A stretch of 64,000 nt of DNA from Rhodospirillales bacterium (GTDB lineage Bacteria > Pseudomonadota > Alphaproteobacteria > Rhodospirillales > Casp-alpha2), in contig JAEPQO010000003.1 in NCBI GenBank assembly GCA_017640505.1, forward strand, positions 248,001 through 312,000. The letters run 5' to 3'. This document shows, in pieces, positions 1,231 to 58,004 of this stretch (positions are counted from its first letter, which is position 1; each line of letters starts with the position of its first letter). The notes beneath the pieces are model-generated. The model saw only the letters and a list, made by a program, of their open reading frames with translations, was not told the DNA's origin and ran no database searches. The position numbers were made by a program, and so were the translations under genes.

Positions 1231-1983
1231 ATGAGCGTTTGGGGTAAAGTCATCGGCGGCATCGCCGGTTTGGCGGTCGGGGGGCCGATCGGCGCGGTGA
1301 TCGGCGCCGTTGCCGGGCATCATGTCGTCGACAAGAAAAAGGCCGGCGAACTCAATCAGGACGACAAACAGGTTGCATTCACGACGGCCGTCATCGTGCT
1401 TTCGGCGAAGATGGCCAAGGCCGACGGCCGCGTTACGCGCGACGAGGTCGACGCCTTCAAGCAACTGTTCCATATCGAGCCCGAGGACGTGCCGACGGTT
1501 GCCGCGATCTTCGACGAAGCCAAACAGAATGCCGAAGGGTTCGAGCCCTATGCCGAGCAGATCGGTGATATGTTCAAGGGCGACTGGCATCTGCTGGAAG
1601 AGATCATTGGCGCGCAGTTCCACATCGCCAAGGCGGACGGCGTTATTCATCCCGGCGAGGTCGAATATCTGCGCAAGGTCGCGCTGCTGTTCGGCTTTAC
1701 GGAGCGTGACTTCGACCGGCTGCAGACGATCTATCTCGGTGGCTGGCAGGGCGAGGGGGGCCGTTCATTCCGTGCCGACGACGCCTATCAGGTGCTGGGG
1801 GTCTCCAAGGAGGCATCCGATGCCGACATCAAGAAGGCGTACCGGGATCTGGTTCGTGAAAACCACCCCGATACCCTGATGGCCAAGGGCATGCCCGAGG
1901 AATTCATCGAACTGGCCAACGAGAAGCTGGCCAAGATCAACGACGCCTACGACCGCATCAAGAAAGCCCGCGGGTTCTCGTGA
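1231..1983 (+). CDS. TerB and DnaJ domain co-chaperone (DjlA-like)
   Basis: The 250-residue protein has three visible parts. Residues 5-33 are a Gly-rich hydrophobic segment that could insert in or associate with the membrane. Residues about 45-165 form a helical TerB-type domain with two acidic ADG motifs (AKADGRV, AKADGVI). Residues 183-250 form a C-terminal J domain with the HPD tripeptide at 212-214. J domains stimulate the ATPase of DnaK-type chaperones. This order (membrane segment, TerB, J domain) is that of DjlA, a membrane-linked co-chaperone of the stress response. The gene follows the DUF3750 gene by 10 bases. Confidence 0.85.
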   Translation: MSVWGKVIGGIAGLAVGGPIGAVIGAVAGHHVVDKKKAGELNQDDKQVAFTTAVIVLSAKMAKADGRVTRDEVDAFKQLFHIEPEDVPTVAAIFDEAKQNAEGFEPYAEQIGDMFKGDWHLLEEIIGAQFHIAKADGVIHPGEVEYLRKVALLFGFTERDFDRLQTIYLGGWQGEGGRSFRADDAYQVLGVSKEASDADIKKAYRDLVRENHPDTLMAKGMPEEFIELANEKLAKINDAYDRIKKARGFS

Positions 1984-2023
1984 GGCTGCCGGTGGCGACA
2001 CCGGCTCAGCTTAAGGAACTGCC

Positions 2024-2920
2024 ATGCCGCTGATCGGCGTTCTCGCCGCGCTTGCGACCGTGACCCTTTGGGGGTGCAACTTCGTTGCCGTGAAAGTCGC
2101 GGTGACGGAGGTGCCGCCGTATTTCGTCACGGCGATGCGGTTTGCGTTGCTGGCGATCCTGCTGTCGCCGTTCCTGCGTATTCCGAAAGCACGTACCCGC
2201 GATATCGCCGGTTACGCCCTGATCATGGGCGTCGGCCATTTCGCGATCATGTTCTATGCGATCCAGTTCCTAGACATATCGACGACGGGGATCGTTCTGC
2301 AGCTGGGCACACCGTTCGTCGTCCTGCTGGCGTGGCTGATGCTGAAGGAAACGTTCGGCCTCTGGCGTATGGCAGGGATGGCGCTGGCGTTCACCGGGAT
2401 CGTCATTCTGATTGGCGTGCCCACCGTCGGCGTCGACGTGGCGGCGCTTCTGATCCTGGTCGTCGCCGCGTTCATGTGGGCGCTGGGCTCGATCCGCGCC
2501 AAGCAGATTCCGGACGTCTCCGCATTCAGCCTGATCGCCTGGATGGGCTTGATTGTCGCGCCGGTCGCGCTCGGGCTTTCCATGCTGTTCGAGGCCGATC
2601 AGCTTGCGCGCACCATGTCGGCGCCGCCGAAGTTCTGGTATGGACTCGTCTACATGACGCTGGCCAGTTCCATTGCCGGATATGGTCTCTGGTACTGGTT
2701 GCTCAACAGGTATGACGTGACCGCCGTTGCGCCGTACAATCTATTGGTGCCGCTGATCGCGGTCGCCAGCGGCGTGACGATCATGGGGGACGAATTGACG
2801 CTGACCAAGCTGATCGGGGGCGGGATGATCCTGGGCGGGGTATCGTTGATCACGGTCCGACAGATCGTGCTGGCCCGGCGTGCACGGCGCACGGCGACAC
2901 TGCAGGGGCCGCCATCATGA
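2024..2920 (+). CDS. EamA-family (DMT superfamily) transporter
   Basis: This 298-residue protein shows about ten hydrophobic helices in two repeated halves, as in the drug/metabolite transporter superfamily. The N-terminus (LAALATVTLWGCNFVAVKVA) is the typical EamA start, and the second half repeats the fold from about residue 145. These exporters usually handle amino acids or small metabolites, but the substrate cannot be read from the sequence. ATG at 2024 is preceded by AAGGAA. The end overlaps the next gene by four bases (ATGA), so the amidase is translationally coupled. Confidence 0.88.
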   Translation: MPLIGVLAALATVTLWGCNFVAVKVAVTEVPPYFVTAMRFALLAILLSPFLRIPKARTRDIAGYALIMGVGHFAIMFYAIQFLDISTTGIVLQLGTPFVVLLAWLMLKETFGLWRMAGMALAFTGIVILIGVPTVGVDVAALLILVVAAFMWALGSIRAKQIPDVSAFSLIAWMGLIVAPVALGLSMLFEADQLARTMSAPPKFWYGLVYMTLASSIAGYGLWYWLLNRYDVTAVAPYNLLVPLIAVASGVTIMGDELTLTKLIGGGMILGGVSLITVRQIVLARRARRTATLQGPPS

Positions 2921-3600
2921 CCGGGGACGACGGCAAACCCTGGCGCTCACCAAATTTCAACAGCCGCGACGGCACGCCGGTCGACATGCTGGTGCTGCAT
3001 TACACCGGGATGCAGACCTGCCGGGAAGCGCTCGACCGGCTGTGCGATCCTGCGGCCGAGGTCAGTGCGCATTACCTGATCGAAGAGGACGGCACGCTGC
3101 ATCGTCTGGTCGACGAGGCCGAACGTGCGTGGCACGCGGGTGTGTCGTCGTGGCGCGGCAAGACTGACATCAACAGCCGTTCCATCGGCATCGAGCTGGT
3201 CAATCCGGGGCATGAATGGGGATATCGCAAATTCCCGGTTCCGCAGATGAAGGAACTGGTCCGGCTCGCCAAGCAGATCGTCGCCCGCCACGATATTCCG
3301 GCCCGCAACGTGGTCGGGCATTCCGATGTCGCGCCGGCGCGAAAGCTCGATCCCGGCGAGTTTTTCGACTGGCCGGCGTTGGCGCGAAACGGGCTCGGCA
3401 TCTGGCCTGACGAAAACAACCTGCCCGAAGCCTGTGAAACCTATGACGTGACGCGCTACCTGGCCGATATCGGCTACGACATCGACAACGAACCCGCGGC
3501 CATTGCCGCCTTCCAGCGCCATTTCCGGCGCCGCTGGTTCGACGGCAAGGCGGACGAGGAAACGCGCCGCACTATTGCCGCGGTGCGCGCTCTTATATAA
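2917..3600 (+). CDS. amiD: N-acetylmuramoyl-L-alanine amidase, AmpD/AmiD type
   Basis: The 227-residue enzyme has an Amidase_2 (zinc amidase) domain over about residues 22-155. The zinc ligands of the family are visible as His28 (LHYTG), His135 (GHSDVAP) and Asp145 (KLDPG). A C-terminal stretch of about 65 residues looks like a short peptidoglycan-binding domain. It cleaves the bond between MurNAc and the peptide stem in muropeptide recycling. I see no clear signal peptide or lipobox, so a cytosolic AmpD-like role is as possible as a periplasmic AmiD one. Its TAA stop overlaps the -10 box of rnpB. Confidence 0.87.
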   Translation: MTGDDGKPWRSPNFNSRDGTPVDMLVLHYTGMQTCREALDRLCDPAAEVSAHYLIEEDGTLHRLVDEAERAWHAGVSSWRGKTDINSRSIGIELVNPGHEWGYRKFPVPQMKELVRLAKQIVARHDIPARNVVGHSDVAPARKLDPGEFFDWPALARNGLGIWPDENNLPEACETYDVTRYLADIGYDIDNEPAAIAAFQRHFRRRWFDGKADEETRRTIAAVRALI

Positions 3601-53114: not shown

Positions 53115-53990
53115 CTACAGCAGATCGAGCGGCAGCTTCAGATATCGCGTCCCGTTGTCTTCGGGCTCGGGCAGCTTGCCGGCCCGGATGTTGACCTGAA
53201 CGGACGGCAGGATCAGCACCGGCATGGAAAGCGTCGCGTCCTTGTCGGCGCGCATTTTCGCGTAGGCCGCCGCATCCTTGCATGTCGTCAGGTGCACGTT
53301 CTGCTGGCGCTGCTCGGCGACGGTATTGCTGATCATCAGCTCACGCCCGCCCGGCTGGTAATCGTGGCACAGGAACAGCCGCGTCGCATCCGGCAGGGCG
53401 AGGATCTTCTGGATCGAGTTGTAAAGAACCTCGCCGTCGCCGCCCGGGAAATCGCAGCGCGCACTGCCGTAATCGGGGGCGAACAGGGTATCGCCGATGA
53501 ACGCCGCATCGCCGAACACGTAGGTCGCGCAGGCCGGCGTGTGCCCCGGCGTATACATCGCGTATCCCGTCAGCCCGCCGATGGAAATTGCCTCGCCATC
53601 GGCAAACAGGTGGTCGAACTGGCTGCCGTCGGTGGCGACGCCGGGCAGGTTGAAGACGCCGGTGAAGACGTCCTGAACGGTGCGGACATTGGCGCCGATG
53701 CCGATCGGCGCACCTGTCTTTTCGCGGATGTAGCTGCCGGCGGTCAGGTGATCGGCATGGACGTGGGTTTCCAATACCCATTCGAGCGTCAGCCCGCGCG
53801 CGTCAATTCGTGCCAGCGCCTTGTCGGCGGATTTCGTCGAGGTGCGGCCGGACTTCGGATCGAAATCGAGCACCGAGTCGATCAGCGCGCACTTCCCGCT
53901 CGCGGGATCGGTGACGAGGTGGGTCAGAGTGAAGGTGTCCGGGTCGAAAAAACTCTCGACGTCGGTTTTGATATCACTGTGTGTATCCAT
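53115..53990 (-). CDS. MBL-fold metallohydrolase
   Basis: A 291-residue metallo-beta-lactamase-fold protein with the metal motif H-X-H-X-D-H at His76-His81 (ETHVHADHLT), GHTPACATY for the next ligand, and FIGDTLFAPDYGSARCDFPGG. This last pattern fits the group containing persulfide dioxygenases and the Blh/BigR-linked hydrolases. It probably acts on a thioester or persulfide, but the substrate is not certain. ATG at 53990 is the likely start. Confidence 0.87.
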   Translation of the reverse strand: MDTHSDIKTDVESFFDPDTFTLTHLVTDPASGKCALIDSVLDFDPKSGRTSTKSADKALARIDARGLTLEWVLETHVHADHLTAGSYIREKTGAPIGIGANVRTVQDVFTGVFNLPGVATDGSQFDHLFADGEAISIGGLTGYAMYTPGHTPACATYVFGDAAFIGDTLFAPDYGSARCDFPGGDGEVLYNSIQKILALPDATRLFLCHDYQPGGRELMISNTVAEQRQQNVHLTTCKDAAAYAKMRADKDATLSMPVLILPSVQVNIRAGKLPEPEDNGTRYLKLPLDLL

Positions 53991-54049
53991 GCCGGGAGTG
54001 TAACAGGCATGAACCGGTATCACATTCAAAAAATGTATAATGAAGAGTT

Positions 54050-54703
54050 TTAAATGTGATCGCTGACGAAGGCGGTCATGTCGCGGACGACCTCGCCCCG
54101 GACCATGGGCATGCAGTCGTCGGGGAAGTCCTGGCGGTACTCGACGCCGATGCCGTCCAGTTCGTCCAGGAACCGGGCGAGGTGCGCCATCGCGCCGGTG
54201 TCCATGCCGTGGATCACGATCACCGACCAGTCCTGATCGGCGAGGGTTTCAAGCGCCGTTTCGACCCAGCCGTCAGGGTCTTTCCAGTCGCCGGGAACAT
54301 TGTTCCAAAGCACGCACGAATAGCCGTCGTCCTTGAGATAGTCGAAGCACCGCTTGTTCAGCAGCCGTTCCGAGATCGCGCCGCCGCCACCGAACGGGCG
54401 GAACAGCTTGTCGGCGTGCGCGCAGGCGCCGATCGCCTCCTGGGTGCGGCCGATCTCGTTCTCGGCGATGGCCGGGTCGCCGAAGATCTCGCCCAGGGGC
54501 GTCGTGTGCGACCAGGTGTGATTGCCGATGATGTGGCCCTCGGCGTGGGCCCGGCTGGCGGCCTCGAGGCCGGCCTCGGTGTCCAGCTTGCGGCCGATGA
54601 CGAAGAACACCGCCCCGATGCCGCGCGCGCCCAGTTCGTCCAGCACCCCGTGGGTGATGTCCGGTTCCGGCCCGTTGTCGAAGGTCAGCGTCACGCGCTT
54701 CAT
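54050..54703 (-). CDS. Polysaccharide deacetylase (NodB-like)
   Basis: The 217-residue protein is a single NodB homology domain without a signal peptide. Motif 1 reads TFDNGPEPD instead of the usual TFDDGP, so the metal-binding Asp is replaced by Asn10. Motif 2 is NHTWSH with both His (62, 66) present. Enzymes of the family remove acetyl groups from glycans. The substitution may alter metal binding or reflect a subfamily with another substrate. It lies close to the edge of the tRNA-Pro island but reads outside it. Confidence 0.85.
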   Translation of the reverse strand: MKRVTLTFDNGPEPDITHGVLDELGARGIGAVFFVIGRKLDTEAGLEAASRAHAEGHIIGNHTWSHTTPLGEIFGDPAIAENEIGRTQEAIGACAHADKLFRPFGGGGAISERLLNKRCFDYLKDDGYSCVLWNNVPGDWKDPDGWVETALETLADQDWSVIVIHGMDTGAMAHLARFLDELDGIGVEYRQDFPDDCMPMVRGEVVRDMTAFVSDHI

Positions 54704-54793
54704 CGTTCACTCCCTGTCCGGCGTCACCAGCGCCGGTTACCGGGCAGGGTATATGAGATTGCGGGGGAGGGGAAATTTTTCGGCTGGAAACAA

Positions 54794-54822
54794 AAAACCC
54801 CCGGCTTGCGCCGAGGGTTTTT
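54794..54822 (-). terminator. Probable original terminator of the tRNA-Pro gene
   Basis: Read on the minus strand, AAAACCCTCGGC pairs with GCCGGGGGTTTT around GCAA, followed by a T run. It sits two bases beyond the displaced tRNA fragment, where the terminator of the tRNA gene would have been before insertion. Confidence 0.75.
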
Positions 54823-54824
54823 AT

Positions 54825-54869
54825 TGGTCGGAGTGAGTGGATTCGAACCACCGGCCCCTGCCTCCCGAA
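54825..54869 (-). repeat. Displaced 3' half of tRNA-Pro (att-like direct repeat)
   Basis: These 45 bases match 57335-57379 at 43 positions. Read on the minus strand they cover the tRNA from the anticodon loop (TTCGGGA) to the encoded CCA. The two differences lie opposite each other in the T stem (T-A here, A-T in the intact gene). The 5' half of the tRNA is absent, so this is a fragment. Confidence 0.9.
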
Positions 54870-55109
54870 TTTTGCGGAACACCTAATTTCTGTTGTATTC
54901 CAAAGCATTGTAATGCTGTCTGACGCAAGTGTTCGCGGTTTGTCGCATGGGAAGCATAACCAAAACGACACCTGATGGTTGATGGCCTTGGTTAAGCAAA
55001 CTTTTATACTTCGAGTGCACGTTTGACCCTGACGTAATGTCTTTTATCTGACCTGGGCTCGAAGCATATCGAATATTGCAAAGTATCGCTTCGATCAGAT
55101 GAGGGAAGC

Positions 55110-55892
55110 ATGAGTACTAGCCAAATTGAATGGACGGATGCGACGTGGAATCCTGTATCTGGATGTAGCATCGTTACCGCGGGGTGCAGCAATTGTTATG
55201 CGATGCAGTTAGCACGCCGCCTTGAGGCGATGGGGGTTGCGAAATACTCTGGATTAACCCGCAAAAGCGGCAAGCGTACGGTGTGGAACGGGGAGGTTCG
55301 AGAGAGCAAAGAGGCGCTTGAAGTCCCGCTGTCGTGGAAGAAGCCGCGGAAAATTTTTGTCAATTCGATGAGTGACCTCTTTCATGAAGGGGTTAGTGAT
55401 GAATTCATTGGTAAGGTCTGGGACGTAATGCGGGCAACGCCGCATCACAATTATCAAATATTGACCAAGCGCCCGGAACGTATGGCAGAGTTTGTTTCCA
55501 ATAACGTTACTGATGTTCTGAAGAACATCTGGCTAGGTACCAGCATTGAAGACAAGGAAGTTTCGCATCGAGCAGAGGCATTGAGGTCAACTCCTGCTGC
55601 CGTCCGGTTTATCTCATTCGAACCCTTGATCGGTTCCGTTGGGTCCATTGATTTAAATGGGGTCCATTGGGCAATCGTCGGCGGTGAGAGTGGACACAAT
55701 GCTCGACCGATTTGTGAGGAATGGATTGACGAAATCCATAAGCTTTGTAAGCGGCATGGGACGGCATTCTTCTTCAAGCAGTGGGGTACTTGGGGAGCGG
55801 ATAACAAGCGGCGGTCAAAGAAGGCGAATGGGCGCAAATATCGTGGCCGAACATGGGATGAGATGCCGCACGGCACGACTTTGGCAATGTGA
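55110..55892 (+). CDS. Three-Cys-motif protein (DUF5131, phage Gp37/Gp68-like)
   Basis: This 260-residue protein has the diagnostic N-terminus IEWTDATWNPVSGC and a three-cysteine motif C-X6-C-X2-C at Cys19, Cys26 and Cys29 (ending CSNCYA). The rest has conserved DUF5131 features: RKIFVNSMSDLFHEG, YQILTKRPERM, NIWLGTSIED, RFISFEPLIG, WAIVGGESG and FFFKQWGTW. The cysteine cluster recalls radical-SAM proteins, but the spacing is not the standard CX3CX2C. GAGG precedes the ATG. It is followed after 12 bases by tcmP, the expected partner. The molecular function is not established to my knowledge. Confidence 0.88.
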   Translation: MSTSQIEWTDATWNPVSGCSIVTAGCSNCYAMQLARRLEAMGVAKYSGLTRKSGKRTVWNGEVRESKEALEVPLSWKKPRKIFVNSMSDLFHEGVSDEFIGKVWDVMRATPHHNYQILTKRPERMAEFVSNNVTDVLKNIWLGTSIEDKEVSHRAEALRSTPAAVRFISFEPLIGSVGSIDLNGVHWAIVGGESGHNARPICEEWIDEIHKLCKRHGTAFFFKQWGTWGADNKRRSKKANGRKYRGRTWDEMPHGTTLAM

Positions 55893-55904
55893 TTGAGATA
55901 GAAA

Positions 55905-57149
55905 TTGGTACAGAAAGCCTACGATTGGAAAAACGGCGCTGTATTAGAAGATCATTCACGCAGAAAGCATAAGATCATTGGAGAGTACTTCTATGACTAC
56001 CTTTTGGTGCGTTGTAGAAGGCCGCAGCAGTCCCTGTTCCGTCTCGCTATCATTGACGGTTTTGCAGGTGGTGGTCGGTATCAATGTGGGTCTCCTGGAT
56101 CGCCGCTAATTTTCATCGAAGAACTTGTTCGAGCGAATTCCACTGTGAATCTTTCGCGGATCGATCAAGGTTTACCCCCTGTCAGCTTCCAATGTTTGTT
56201 GATCGTAAACGACTTCGATCCGGAGGTTATCAACATTCTCAGGGAGAATGTTTCCCCGCTCGTCGCCCGGATCAAAGAAACGAACCAAAATATAAACCTC
56301 CAAGTCAAATTTCTGACCAGCCCGTTTGAGAAAGCGTTCATAGAGATAGAGAAAATTCTGAACTCTGAAAAATATACGAATGTCGTTTTCAATTTAGACC
56401 AATGTGGGCACAGCTTGGTTGAGGTTGATACGGTGAAGAAGATCGTGTCTTCGTATCCGTCAGCAGAAATTTTCTTCACTTTTGCGATTCAGTCATTGAT
56501 CGCATTTCTACAAAAATCGGACCCAAGTAAGTTGATCCGTTATGGCGTCGGCAAGGAAGAATTGGCGGTGTTAAACGGACCATTGAATCGGGAGGAATGG
56601 CTGGGACTGGCCGAACGAATTGTATTTGAGACGTTCAGCAAGTTCGCCGGCTTTGTAAGCCCGTTTTCAATTCACAATCCAAATGGATGGCGATATTGGC
56701 TTTTGCATATGGCCAACAGGTCATTTCGAGCTCGTCAGGTTTTCAATGACGTTCTGCACCGAAACAAAAATATGCAGGCGCACTTTGGGCGCTCCGGATT
56801 GAATATGCTTGCTTACAACCCAGACAATGATGCGAATGCGCTTTATCTCTTCGGAGAGGAAGATCGAAAGGCTGCGACCGAAGAGCTCATCTACGATATA
56901 CCGCGGTTTGTAACTGATAGCGGGAGTGAGATGCCGCTCTCTGATTTCTATCGGCAAGTTTACAACGGCACGCCAGCTCACTCAGACGATATACATGCAG
57001 CAATAATTGAAAGCTCTGAGGTTCAAGCAGTGACGCGGCATGGCGGAGTCCGTAGGAAAGGGACATCAATACGTGCCGAGGATGTGTTGAAGCTCAAACC
57101 GCAACGATCCTTTTTCCCGATGCTTGCGAAGAAAAACAAGAAACCTTGA
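55905..57149 (+). CDS. tcmP: Three-Cys-motif partner protein TcmP
   Basis: The 414-residue protein resembles TcmP, the family found next to three-Cys-motif proteins. The N-terminal EDHSRRKHKIIGEYFYDYL and IIDGFAGGGRYQCGSPGSPL (about 49-68) are characteristic; DGFAGGG looks like a SAM-methyltransferase-type glycine loop, and NLDQCGHS near 165 occupies the place of the acidic strand motif. No nuclease motif is evident. The best start is TTG at 55905, 12 bases after the previous stop, since no in-frame ATG precedes the conserved part. This argues for translational coupling. Base composition is low-GC like its partner. Confidence 0.83.
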   Translation: MVQKAYDWKNGAVLEDHSRRKHKIIGEYFYDYLLVRCRRPQQSLFRLAIIDGFAGGGRYQCGSPGSPLIFIEELVRANSTVNLSRIDQGLPPVSFQCLLIVNDFDPEVINILRENVSPLVARIKETNQNINLQVKFLTSPFEKAFIEIEKILNSEKYTNVVFNLDQCGHSLVEVDTVKKIVSSYPSAEIFFTFAIQSLIAFLQKSDPSKLIRYGVGKEELAVLNGPLNREEWLGLAERIVFETFSKFAGFVSPFSIHNPNGWRYWLLHMANRSFRARQVFNDVLHRNKNMQAHFGRSGLNMLAYNPDNDANALYLFGEEDRKAATEELIYDIPRFVTDSGSEMPLSDFYRQVYNGTPAHSDDIHAAIIESSEVQAVTRHGGVRRKGTSIRAEDVLKLKPQRSFFPMLAKKNKKP

Positions 57150-57257
57150 ACTGATTCGGGTGTGAGGCGCCGTTGCGATGTGATGCGGCCGGGCACTGTT
57201 CTACACGGGACAGCGTCCGGAGACGAAAAAACACTTTTGTATCAATATGTTGTGTGT

Positions 57258-57288
57258 GGTGCAGTAAAACTGTGGTTTTTACTACACC
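57258..57288 (+). terminator. Hairpin after tcmP
   Basis: GGTGCAGTAAAA at 57258-57269 pairs, with one mismatch, with TTTTACTACACC at 57277-57288. Its position about 110 bases after tcmP suggests the end of the TCM/TcmP transcript, although no T tract follows. Confidence 0.5.
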
Positions 57289-57297
57289 AAAACGAAA

Positions 57298-57330
57298 CAA
57301 GGGCTTAGGCGAGATCGCCTAAGCCCTTGA
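57298..57330 (-). terminator. Island-supplied terminator behind tRNA-Pro
   Basis: CAAGGGCTTAGGCGA at 57298-57312 and TCGCCTAAGCCCTTG at 57315-57329 are exact reverse complements. On the minus strand the hairpin lies five bases after the tRNA CCA and is followed by a T-rich tract, so it should terminate the tRNA transcript. Confidence 0.85.
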
Positions 57331-57334
57331 TTTT

Positions 57335-57411
57335 TGGTCGGAGTGAGAGGATTCGAACCTCCGGCCCCTGCCTCCCGAAGACAGTGCTCTACCAGGCTGA
57401 GCTACACTCCG
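57335..57411 (-). tRNA. tRNA-Pro (anticodon CGG)
   Basis: On the minus strand the 77 bases fold as a standard tRNA: acceptor CGGAGTG / CACTCCG, D arm GCTCAGCCTGGTAGAGC, anticodon stem CTGTC / GGCAG around TTCGGGA with anticodon CGG, T loop TTCGAAT, and an encoded CCA. Its 3' half is shared with 54825-54869. Confidence 0.96.
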
Positions 57412-57690
57412 TCCGGGTCGGCGCGCTTTATAGACCCGCACTTGCCCAAGAGCAAGAACCCGCTTCCCCGGAAACGCAAAAAATATCAGGTGGGTACTGG
57501 GCGGGTATTGGGCGGCTGCCGGTGCCCCCGGAATGCTTCAGGACGCTTGAGTAAACGCACTTCGTGCGTAAAATGGCCCTGCCCGGCATATTTCAGTTAT
57601 GTTACGGCATGAATCGTGGCGGGCGAAATCAGGGGGAGTGACCTGGGCATGACTGGGACGTTCCGGAGGCTCTCTGGGGAGCGAGCGGAG

Positions 57691-57909
57691 ATGAACGGCA
57701 AGAAATTCAGAAAGTGGCGCAAGGAGCGCAAGCTGTCGCAGAAGAAGGTCGCGGAGATGCTCGGCCTCAAGCCGCGCATGATCCAGTACTACGAAAAGGG
57801 CGAACGCGACGGCAAAAGCGTGCAGATCCCGAAATCCGTGCGCCTCGCGTGCTATGCGATCGACGCCGGGATCGCCGATTACGACGGCGAGGACGTGAAG
57901 AAGGCCTGA
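57691..57909 (+). CDS. Small XRE-like helix-turn-helix protein
   Basis: The 72-residue protein consists of little more than a helix-turn-helix: FRKWRKERKLSQKKVAEMLGLKPRMIQYYEKG, then VQIPKSVRLACYAIDAGI. Such single-domain XRE proteins act as repressors or phage-like regulators. GGGGAG nine bases before ATG 57691 supports this start; ATG at 57652 is the alternative and would add 13 residues. It lies outside the tRNA-Pro island and has normal GC. The 57412-57690 gap holds no other gene I can support. Confidence 0.75.
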   Translation: MNGKKFRKWRKERKLSQKKVAEMLGLKPRMIQYYEKGERDGKSVQIPKSVRLACYAIDAGIADYDGEDVKKA

Positions 57910-57920
57910 TCCTTCGGGGC

Positions 57921-58004
57921 GTGCCTCAGTGGGCGCGCTGGATGCAGTCGCGCCACGACGGCGCGCAAACCAGAGCCGTGCCCTAGTGGGCGCGCTGGAT
58001 GCAA
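57921..58004. repeat. Duplicated 3' end of the polyprenyl synthase gene
   Basis: Positions 57921-57946 and 57979-58004 match at 24 of 26 bases. The second copy spans the end and stop of the polyprenyl synthase gene (CIQRAH-stop on the minus strand) and the first repeats it just beyond the gene, including a stop codon. The offset is 58 bases. A local tandem duplication is the simplest reading. Confidence 0.8.

Follow-up and report, generated by a model that had tools for sequence, protein, structure and literature searches.

A pair of genes encoding a DUF5131 (three-Cys-motif) protein and its partner TcmP is already catalogued in PADLOC-DB as the uncharacterised and unvalidated candidate defence system PDC-M30/PDC-M41. 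According to published work, PDC-M30 is present in 32 of 100 Pseudomonas aeruginosa strains, 68.8% of those 32 being resistant (PMC10855318), strain PA14 carries two copies (PMC11878078), TcmP is found among prophage genes of Sinorhizobium (PMC12429752), and most such core-set candidates still await validation (PMC12988326). We have analysed an occurrence of this pair in a 64-kb stretch of the genome of a Rhodospirillales bacterium (GCA_017640505.1, contig JAEPQO010000003.1, positions 248,001-312,000 of the forward strand). This whole stretch is termed the window, and its coordinates are used below. The locus is a new and very small instance of the catalogued candidate, in which the two genes occupy a small genomic island; the evidence supports its site-specific integration at the 3′ end of tRNA-Pro(CGG). 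DUF5131 is predicted to be a radical S-adenosyl methionine (SAM) enzyme, and TcmP a SAM methyltransferase of RlmJ-like fold. What is new here is an enzyme hypothesis that specifies residues, folds and a change in the catalytic motif, together with a coupled effector that recurs among the loci. The literature searched (with subscription papers and preprints outside its scope, and an ambiguous abbreviation) yielded no mechanism study of the pair. The original prediction, made from the DNA alone, knew of no settled function for these families; this stands, with the refinement that a defence catalogue already lists the two genes under a name.

Compared with the described systems, both components of PDC-M30/PDC-M41 are present and adjacent at our locus, as component matches rather than by the PADLOC system rules. 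DUF5131 matches PDC-M41B with E 3.6e-101 and PDC-M30B with E 3.8e-96, whereas the match of TcmP is partial and far weaker (PDC-M30A, E 5.2e-18, residues 13-213; PDC-M41A, only 0.0032). The P. aeruginosa element pKLC102, which we take to be an integrative element, carries both genes in the same order, with a TcmP 50.7% identical to the one studied here. It is however a conjugative element of 103,532 bp, while here the pair lies alone between tRNA repeats. The NCBIfam family TIGR04471 (radical SAM mobile pair protein A) is also a mobile pair by name, and matches DUF5131 residues 16-224 with E 1e-20; the score of 74 bits is well below the cut-off of 355, and the comparison was made on DUF5131 alone. 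The features of the locus are as follows.

54825 to 54869, minus strand: displaced copy of the tRNA-Pro 3′ half (repeat), reaching from the anticodon region as far as the 3′ end
54870 to 57334, no strand: AT-rich insert, 2465 bp between the copies
55110 to 55892, plus strand: DUF5131 (three-Cys-motif) protein, 260 amino acids, ATG start (PF07505, E 7.6e-101)
55905 to 57149, plus strand: TcmP, 414 amino acids, TTG start (TIGR04474, E 6.5e-53)
57298 to 57329, minus strand: terminator-like hairpin with a 14-pair stem, within the insert and just downstream of the intact tRNA (pattern match only)
57335 to 57379, minus strand: attachment-site copy within the intact tRNA (direct repeat), again reaching from the anticodon region as far as the 3′ end
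57335 to 57411, minus strand: intact tRNA-Pro(CGG), the integration site (ARAGORN; Rfam RF00005, 62.2 bits)

The tRNA portion of the repeat is 45 nt long with 43 positions identical between the copies, and the direct repeat in full extends over 49 nt (54821-54869 and 57331-57379; 94% identity, spacing 2510). A tRNA search of the host's own genome also recovers the displaced copy (G000:C6:302825-302869, 96%). The two mismatches are the swapped partners of a single T-stem base pair, so that the T-stem could still be formed in both copies. The T-stem version of the displaced copy is present in the tRNA-Pro of two genomes of the same family (G011 and G029). Within the T arm the congeners carry TTCAAATCC where both copies here have TTCGAATCC, and thus comparison of the tRNA sequences gives no pointer to the native copy. 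The tRNA-Pro(CGG) is the only tRNA detected by ARAGORN in the whole window; an Rfam scan of 54600-57700 is concordant, with tRNA the sole RNA family matched. The GC content of the insert is 0.478, compared with 0.628 and 0.631 in the 5-kb flanks. The insert contains just two open reading frames (ORFs), in the same direction and 12 bp apart, and neither an integrase between the repeats nor an endonuclease was found in the ORF list or by a Pfam scan of the insert. Six matches to the integrase family PF00589 occur in the host genome, all beyond the window, of which some may be housekeeping recombinases; movement of the insert in trans is possible. The original prediction had described such a 45-bp repeat with its 2510-base spacing, an AT-rich interior, and DUF5131 and TcmP as the only genes, with no integrase and a gap of 12 bases; all of this is borne out by the ORFs, family matches and composition. 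A repeat arising by chance is untenable, given the 43/45 match to a tRNA 3′ half, the AT-rich insert and an empty site elsewhere. A second hairpin, judged by eye and absent from the pattern-scan list, lies beside the displaced copy at about 54790-54820.

The empty site is found in a congener (G001): its tRNA-Pro (1502-1578) is intact, and 125 bp beyond it lies the polysaccharide deacetylase gene that also borders the insert in our genome. At the same tRNA-Pro another congener (G003) carries different cargo, i.e. one unrelated gene encoding 398 amino acids and, after it, a tRNA-end remnant of 29 bp. This second insert (L034:1616-3206; gene 1684-2880, minus strand; remnant 3178-3206) has a GC content of 0.38 and no integrase, and its repeat extends beyond the tRNA. 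The 398-residue protein has no match in Pfam, PADLOC or NCBIfam, and no relative in the plasmid collection. In a genome of another genus of the family (G010) a 50-bp tRNA remnant precedes a homologue of the window's neighbouring ORF 53115-54029, and the contigs end there. TcmP is absent from all seven other congeners searched (two of the assemblies being only 58% and 65% complete), and of 61 genomes, the host among them, 10 have a TcmP that scores above cut-off. The empty site, the other cargo with its remnant, and the lack of TcmP in 7/7 congeners underlie our assignment of the locus as an island. Of the hallmarks of a tRNA island, the locus has the flanking direct repeat derived from the tRNA 3′ end, and a relative has the empty site; an integrase of its own is missing. 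The original prediction of a mobile insert, for which comparison with relatives should reveal an empty tRNA-Pro site and different cargo, is therefore supported on both counts. It had also named two findings that would speak against it, namely the same DNA in all relatives, or homologues consistently in metabolic operons; instead the DNA is patchy among the relatives, and homologues are linked to mobile DNA.

In a further congener (G005) about 11 kb of other genes follow the tRNA-Pro (L033:1738-13045), with no second tRNA copy found within the 20 kb examined; by eye, this stretch includes genes resembling sensor kinases and response regulators. At one other locus (L118:7853-14181) the pair is located between tRNA-Gly and a 41-bp copy of the tRNA-Gly 3′ half in a segment of about 6.3 kb, which also has a HipA-like gene and a short integrase-like ORF, both judged by eye. 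At another (L163; positions 8844 and 13322) a 22-bp copy of the tRNA-Gln 5′ end lies on the opposite side of the pair.

DUF5131 is a clear member of PF07505 (337.1 bits over residues 4-253, gathering score 28.9). Its three cysteines, C19, C26 and C29, form the CX6CX2C cluster that had been noted from the sequence, and are conserved in 88/88 sequences. The structural model (predicted local distance difference test, pLDDT, 89.8; predicted template modelling score, pTM, 0.87) is a radical-SAM barrel, in which the cysteines lie between the strand of residues 11-13 and the helix of residues 30-40. In radical-SAM enzymes the 4Fe-4S cluster is bound at this place, after the first strand and before the first helix. 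Thus DUF5131 has the three-Cys loop after the first strand and, in the predicted model, the barrel fold. In the VIA comparison spore photoproduct lyase occupies ranks 1-6 (Z 13.1-13.3 over 193-196 residues at 2.9 Å; 4fhf, Z 13.3), followed by RlmN (Z 10.8), viperin (Z 10.7) and other radical-SAM enzymes. Foldseek also places spore photoproduct lyase at ranks 1-6, with a best E of 4.1e-3. The predicted fold of DUF5131 resembles the lyase with Z 13.3 over 193 residues at 12% identity, and in DUF5131 the three cysteines precede the first long helix. The motif of spore photoproduct lyase is CX3CX2C, whereas that of DUF5131 is CX6CX2C, so the likeness is one of fold and not of family. DUF5131 moreover has conserved stretches of its own (SMSDLF, LTK, GGESG and FFFKQWG). 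We do not take it for a viperin, which is only the third-ranked fold group. In PHROGs the protein is phrog_2045, to which no function is attached.

TcmP satisfies the curated definition of TIGR04474 (180.3 bits against a cut-off of 53, residues 16-287). Its TTG start, suggested earlier, is supported by an alignment of 65 sequences, at least 90% of which begin at the position of the first residue here. The model (pLDDT 84.3, pTM 0.82) has motif I at residues 51-57 and the sequence DQCG at 165-168. Ranks 1-10 in VIA go to nine entries for RlmJ and one DUF519 protein from Legionella (Z 15.4-16.3), DUF519 presumably being the former name of the RlmJ family; Trm1 comes next at 13.5. Independently of the model, a class sample of 289 genomes has six TIGR04474 matches below cut-off, and each of the three that were scanned proved to be RlmJ. 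The single-protein structure predictions that had been proposed thus give a radical-SAM barrel for DUF5131 and an RlmJ-like fold for TcmP, and the latter fits the earlier suggestion that the DGFAGGG loop binds SAM. Neither DUF5131 nor TcmP had a credible match in PDB sequence searches, whether these were run with individual proteins or with profiles, and both folds rest on predicted models.

The predicted TcmP fold matches RlmJ, the 23S rRNA A2030-N6 methyltransferase, with Z 16.3 over 212 residues at 11% identity, and the two share the glycine motif (DGFAGGG in TcmP, with little variation among the sequences compared) and a GSP stretch. By contrast, TcmP has DQ(C/Y)G in place of the DPP(Y/F)-type motif (three aligned RlmJ sequences have DPSY or DPPF), has an extra C-terminal region and adjoins DUF5131. 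In 88 sequences the TcmP motif is DQCG in 71, DQYG in 15, DQFG in one and DPCG in one, so that the aspartate is retained. TcmP gave no match to the RlmJ family PF04378 at E up to 1, while three RlmJ proteins scored 1e-45 to 2e-58. Residues 304-377 match PF22560 GMT-wHTH (E 2e-5, 25.4 bits), and are possibly a winged-helix domain; a literature search on the GMT domain name gave nothing useful, nor did PHROGs for TcmP.

The association of the two proteins is conserved. At least 491 TcmP relatives were found in one scan. In the best 80 genome loci from the genome-collection scan (the 80 loci below) DUF5131 is directly upstream of TcmP on the same strand in every case, five being cut by a contig end. 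In the class sample TcmP is above cut-off in 17/289 genomes, and DUF5131 lies within 1 kb of TcmP for 17 of the 18 matches above cut-off, the remaining one being at a contig edge. The distances within the two families are correlated (r 0.88 for 87 loci and 0.75 for the 74 of these that are genome loci, with 0/999 permutations as high), uncorrected for host phylogeny and with 14 of 101 loci excluded for incomplete or interrupted proteins.

At 13 of the 80 loci, and at none of the viral loci, a further ORF starts inside the last 4 bp of TcmP. Nine of these encode one family of Mrr-type nuclease, which is found in 10/80 loci overall; three of the ten are near-identical, the frame being short in one of these three. 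Of the 289 class-sample genomes, one has a full-length relative of the Mrr protein, located beside the pair, and one further match is partial. At one locus (L147:3845-5233) a SIR2-domain gene with the same 4-bp overlap of the TcmP stop takes the place of the Mrr-type nuclease seen elsewhere. Of the other overlapping ORFs one has a DUF4145 domain, one has no known domain, and one with a TTG start (L152) is seemingly spurious. Seven loci (L155, L157, L159, L161, L162, L163 and L170) share a protein of about 260 amino acids downstream of TcmP, at 36-37 bp in six of them; it has no clear known domain and by eye is apparently membrane-bound. Other neighbours include genes for Hachiman HamA and HamB, MmeI-type IIG enzymes, AbiEii, Abi_2, DarG, PIN and HipA. 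Counting models and not proteins, 152 PADLOC models were matched at 1e-10 by 128 nearest neighbours (from 69/80 loci), against 7 by 128 controls from a housekeeping region of the relatives. For this census 11 of the 80 loci were dropped as near-duplicates in neighbour layout, together with ORFs of more than 1300 amino acids or at a contig end; the ORFs were chosen by length, and some are spurious. On pSymA of S. meliloti (L225:5147-10808) DUF5131 and a long TcmP face what by eye is a shorter TcmP-like gene, followed by an 845-residue protein. The last is probably the Hna helicase, because PMC12445080 has a table in which hna and a TcmP gene are consecutive.

On the basis of this genomic context, i.e. 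the status of PADLOC-DB candidate and the defence-rich surroundings, the pair probably has a role in defence, as the original prediction had proposed. We also favour, with slightly less assurance, a chemistry of nucleic-acid modification; for both to be correct together the prospects are close to even, on the lower side. We infer that the two proteins are active enzymes on a nucleic acid, in which order they react and that they protect from phage, as parts of the following scheme. The insert would carry one operon for two SAM-using enzymes that act as a unit. The pair would modify a base in DNA or, less likely, RNA, and the modification would block or mark invading phage or plasmid DNA. In some genomes the pair may work together with a coupled effector gene. 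A plain restriction-modification system is rejected at the present locus, as there is no endonuclease in the insert. A more specific version, which we regard as possible but doubtful, is that the radical-SAM enzyme and its partner, a class I methyltransferase whose chemistry has changed, act sequentially on one base to create a hypermodified base, and that the pair forms a constant core with varied effectors (Mrr-type nuclease, SIR2-domain protein or membrane protein) joined to it, often by overlapping translation; this would be a new kind of defence.

A number of observations weigh against the main scheme. The PP(Y/F) of the catalytic motif is found in 0/88 TcmP sequences, 87 having DQ, and its loss makes ordinary adenine-N6 methylation doubtful. 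Foldseek alone places an aminopropyltransferase first for TcmP (E 5.5e-4), and RlmJ is absent from its top 50 TcmP matches, where other methyltransferase-fold enzymes lead. Alignment of the TcmP and RlmJ profiles by hhalign gives a probability of 79% over about the N-terminal third only, and the likeness to RlmJ is consequently one of fold rather than family. The PF22560 score is below its cut-off of 27. For DUF5131 the Foldseek match is weak, with none at E ≤ 0.001, and of the 36 class-sample genomes that have DUF5131 there are 19 without TcmP and 17 with it. The coupled effector gene is not seen in most of the relatives, nor here. Single metabolic genes are also present among the neighbours, and since the control was housekeeping and not mobile DNA, the enrichment in PADLOC models may partly reflect mobile islands generally. 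The literature searched yielded no activity or phage assay.

The best-surviving alternative is abortive infection or a toxin-like action, in which the radical-SAM enzyme or the RlmJ-like protein would modify the cell's own rRNA, tRNA or nucleotides upon infection so that growth stops. The closest methyltransferase fold to TcmP is indeed that of a 23S rRNA enzyme, and the next radical-SAM folds for DUF5131 are RlmN, whose substrate is RNA, and viperin, which produces an antiviral nucleotide. Toxin-antitoxin and Abi genes are also among the neighbours. Yet the conserved partner is a second enzyme and not antitoxin-like, and a restriction-type nuclease has been added in 10/80 loci, and we consider this explanation unlikely.

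Less probable again is that the pair protects mobile DNA, modifying a plasmid or island so that it escapes restriction by the host. Relatives occur on 61 plasmid records, 28 of which are typed conjugative, pKLC102 being among the 61. The phage records gave one partial match, and the pair is thus untypical as phage cargo within that collection; relatives, mostly distant, are present on 21 viral contigs. Integrase or serine-recombinase genes are matched in 31/80 loci and 1/20 control loci. This comparison is biased towards the pair loci: the serine-recombinase profile was built from genes adjoining the pair, and that for integrases from the six host-genome matches. In 8 loci there is a neighbour cluster that we take, by eye, to be ArdC-like antirestriction proteins, and this is counted for self-protection. 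Here, however, the pair is the sole cargo of an integrase-free insert, and the nucleases that accompany it in 10/80 loci fit restriction better than evasion.

A role in DNA repair or RNA maturation, with lesion repair of the spore-photoproduct-lyase type and a methyltransferase helper conferring tolerance of UV or alkylation, is improbable. The closest fold to DUF5131 is that of a DNA repair enzyme, but the patchy distribution (TcmP in 17/289 class genomes), the mobile and defence-related context and the regular partnership with a second SAM enzyme would all be unusual for repair. Least probable of all is that a larger element has decayed to leave this insert, with the pair now inert, for despite the missing integrase, and the lack of a sigma-70-like promoter for the operon in a pattern scan restricted to that one promoter type, both frames are full length and keep the residues that are invariant in their alignments.

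Returning to the pair as a modification enzyme system, we note that a widespread, catalogue-flagged pair with no proposed chemistry in the literature searched becomes testable through this structural reading. It provides two enzymes that depend on SAM, with three named cysteines and a specified change in the catalytic motif, and, in some genomes, a coupled nuclease. With two genes between two tRNA repeats, the very small insert is a convenient unit for cloning and testing. Elsewhere in the window a 27-bp direct repeat of 93% identity (57920-57946 and 57977-58003) is found at and past the end of a polyprenyl synthase gene.

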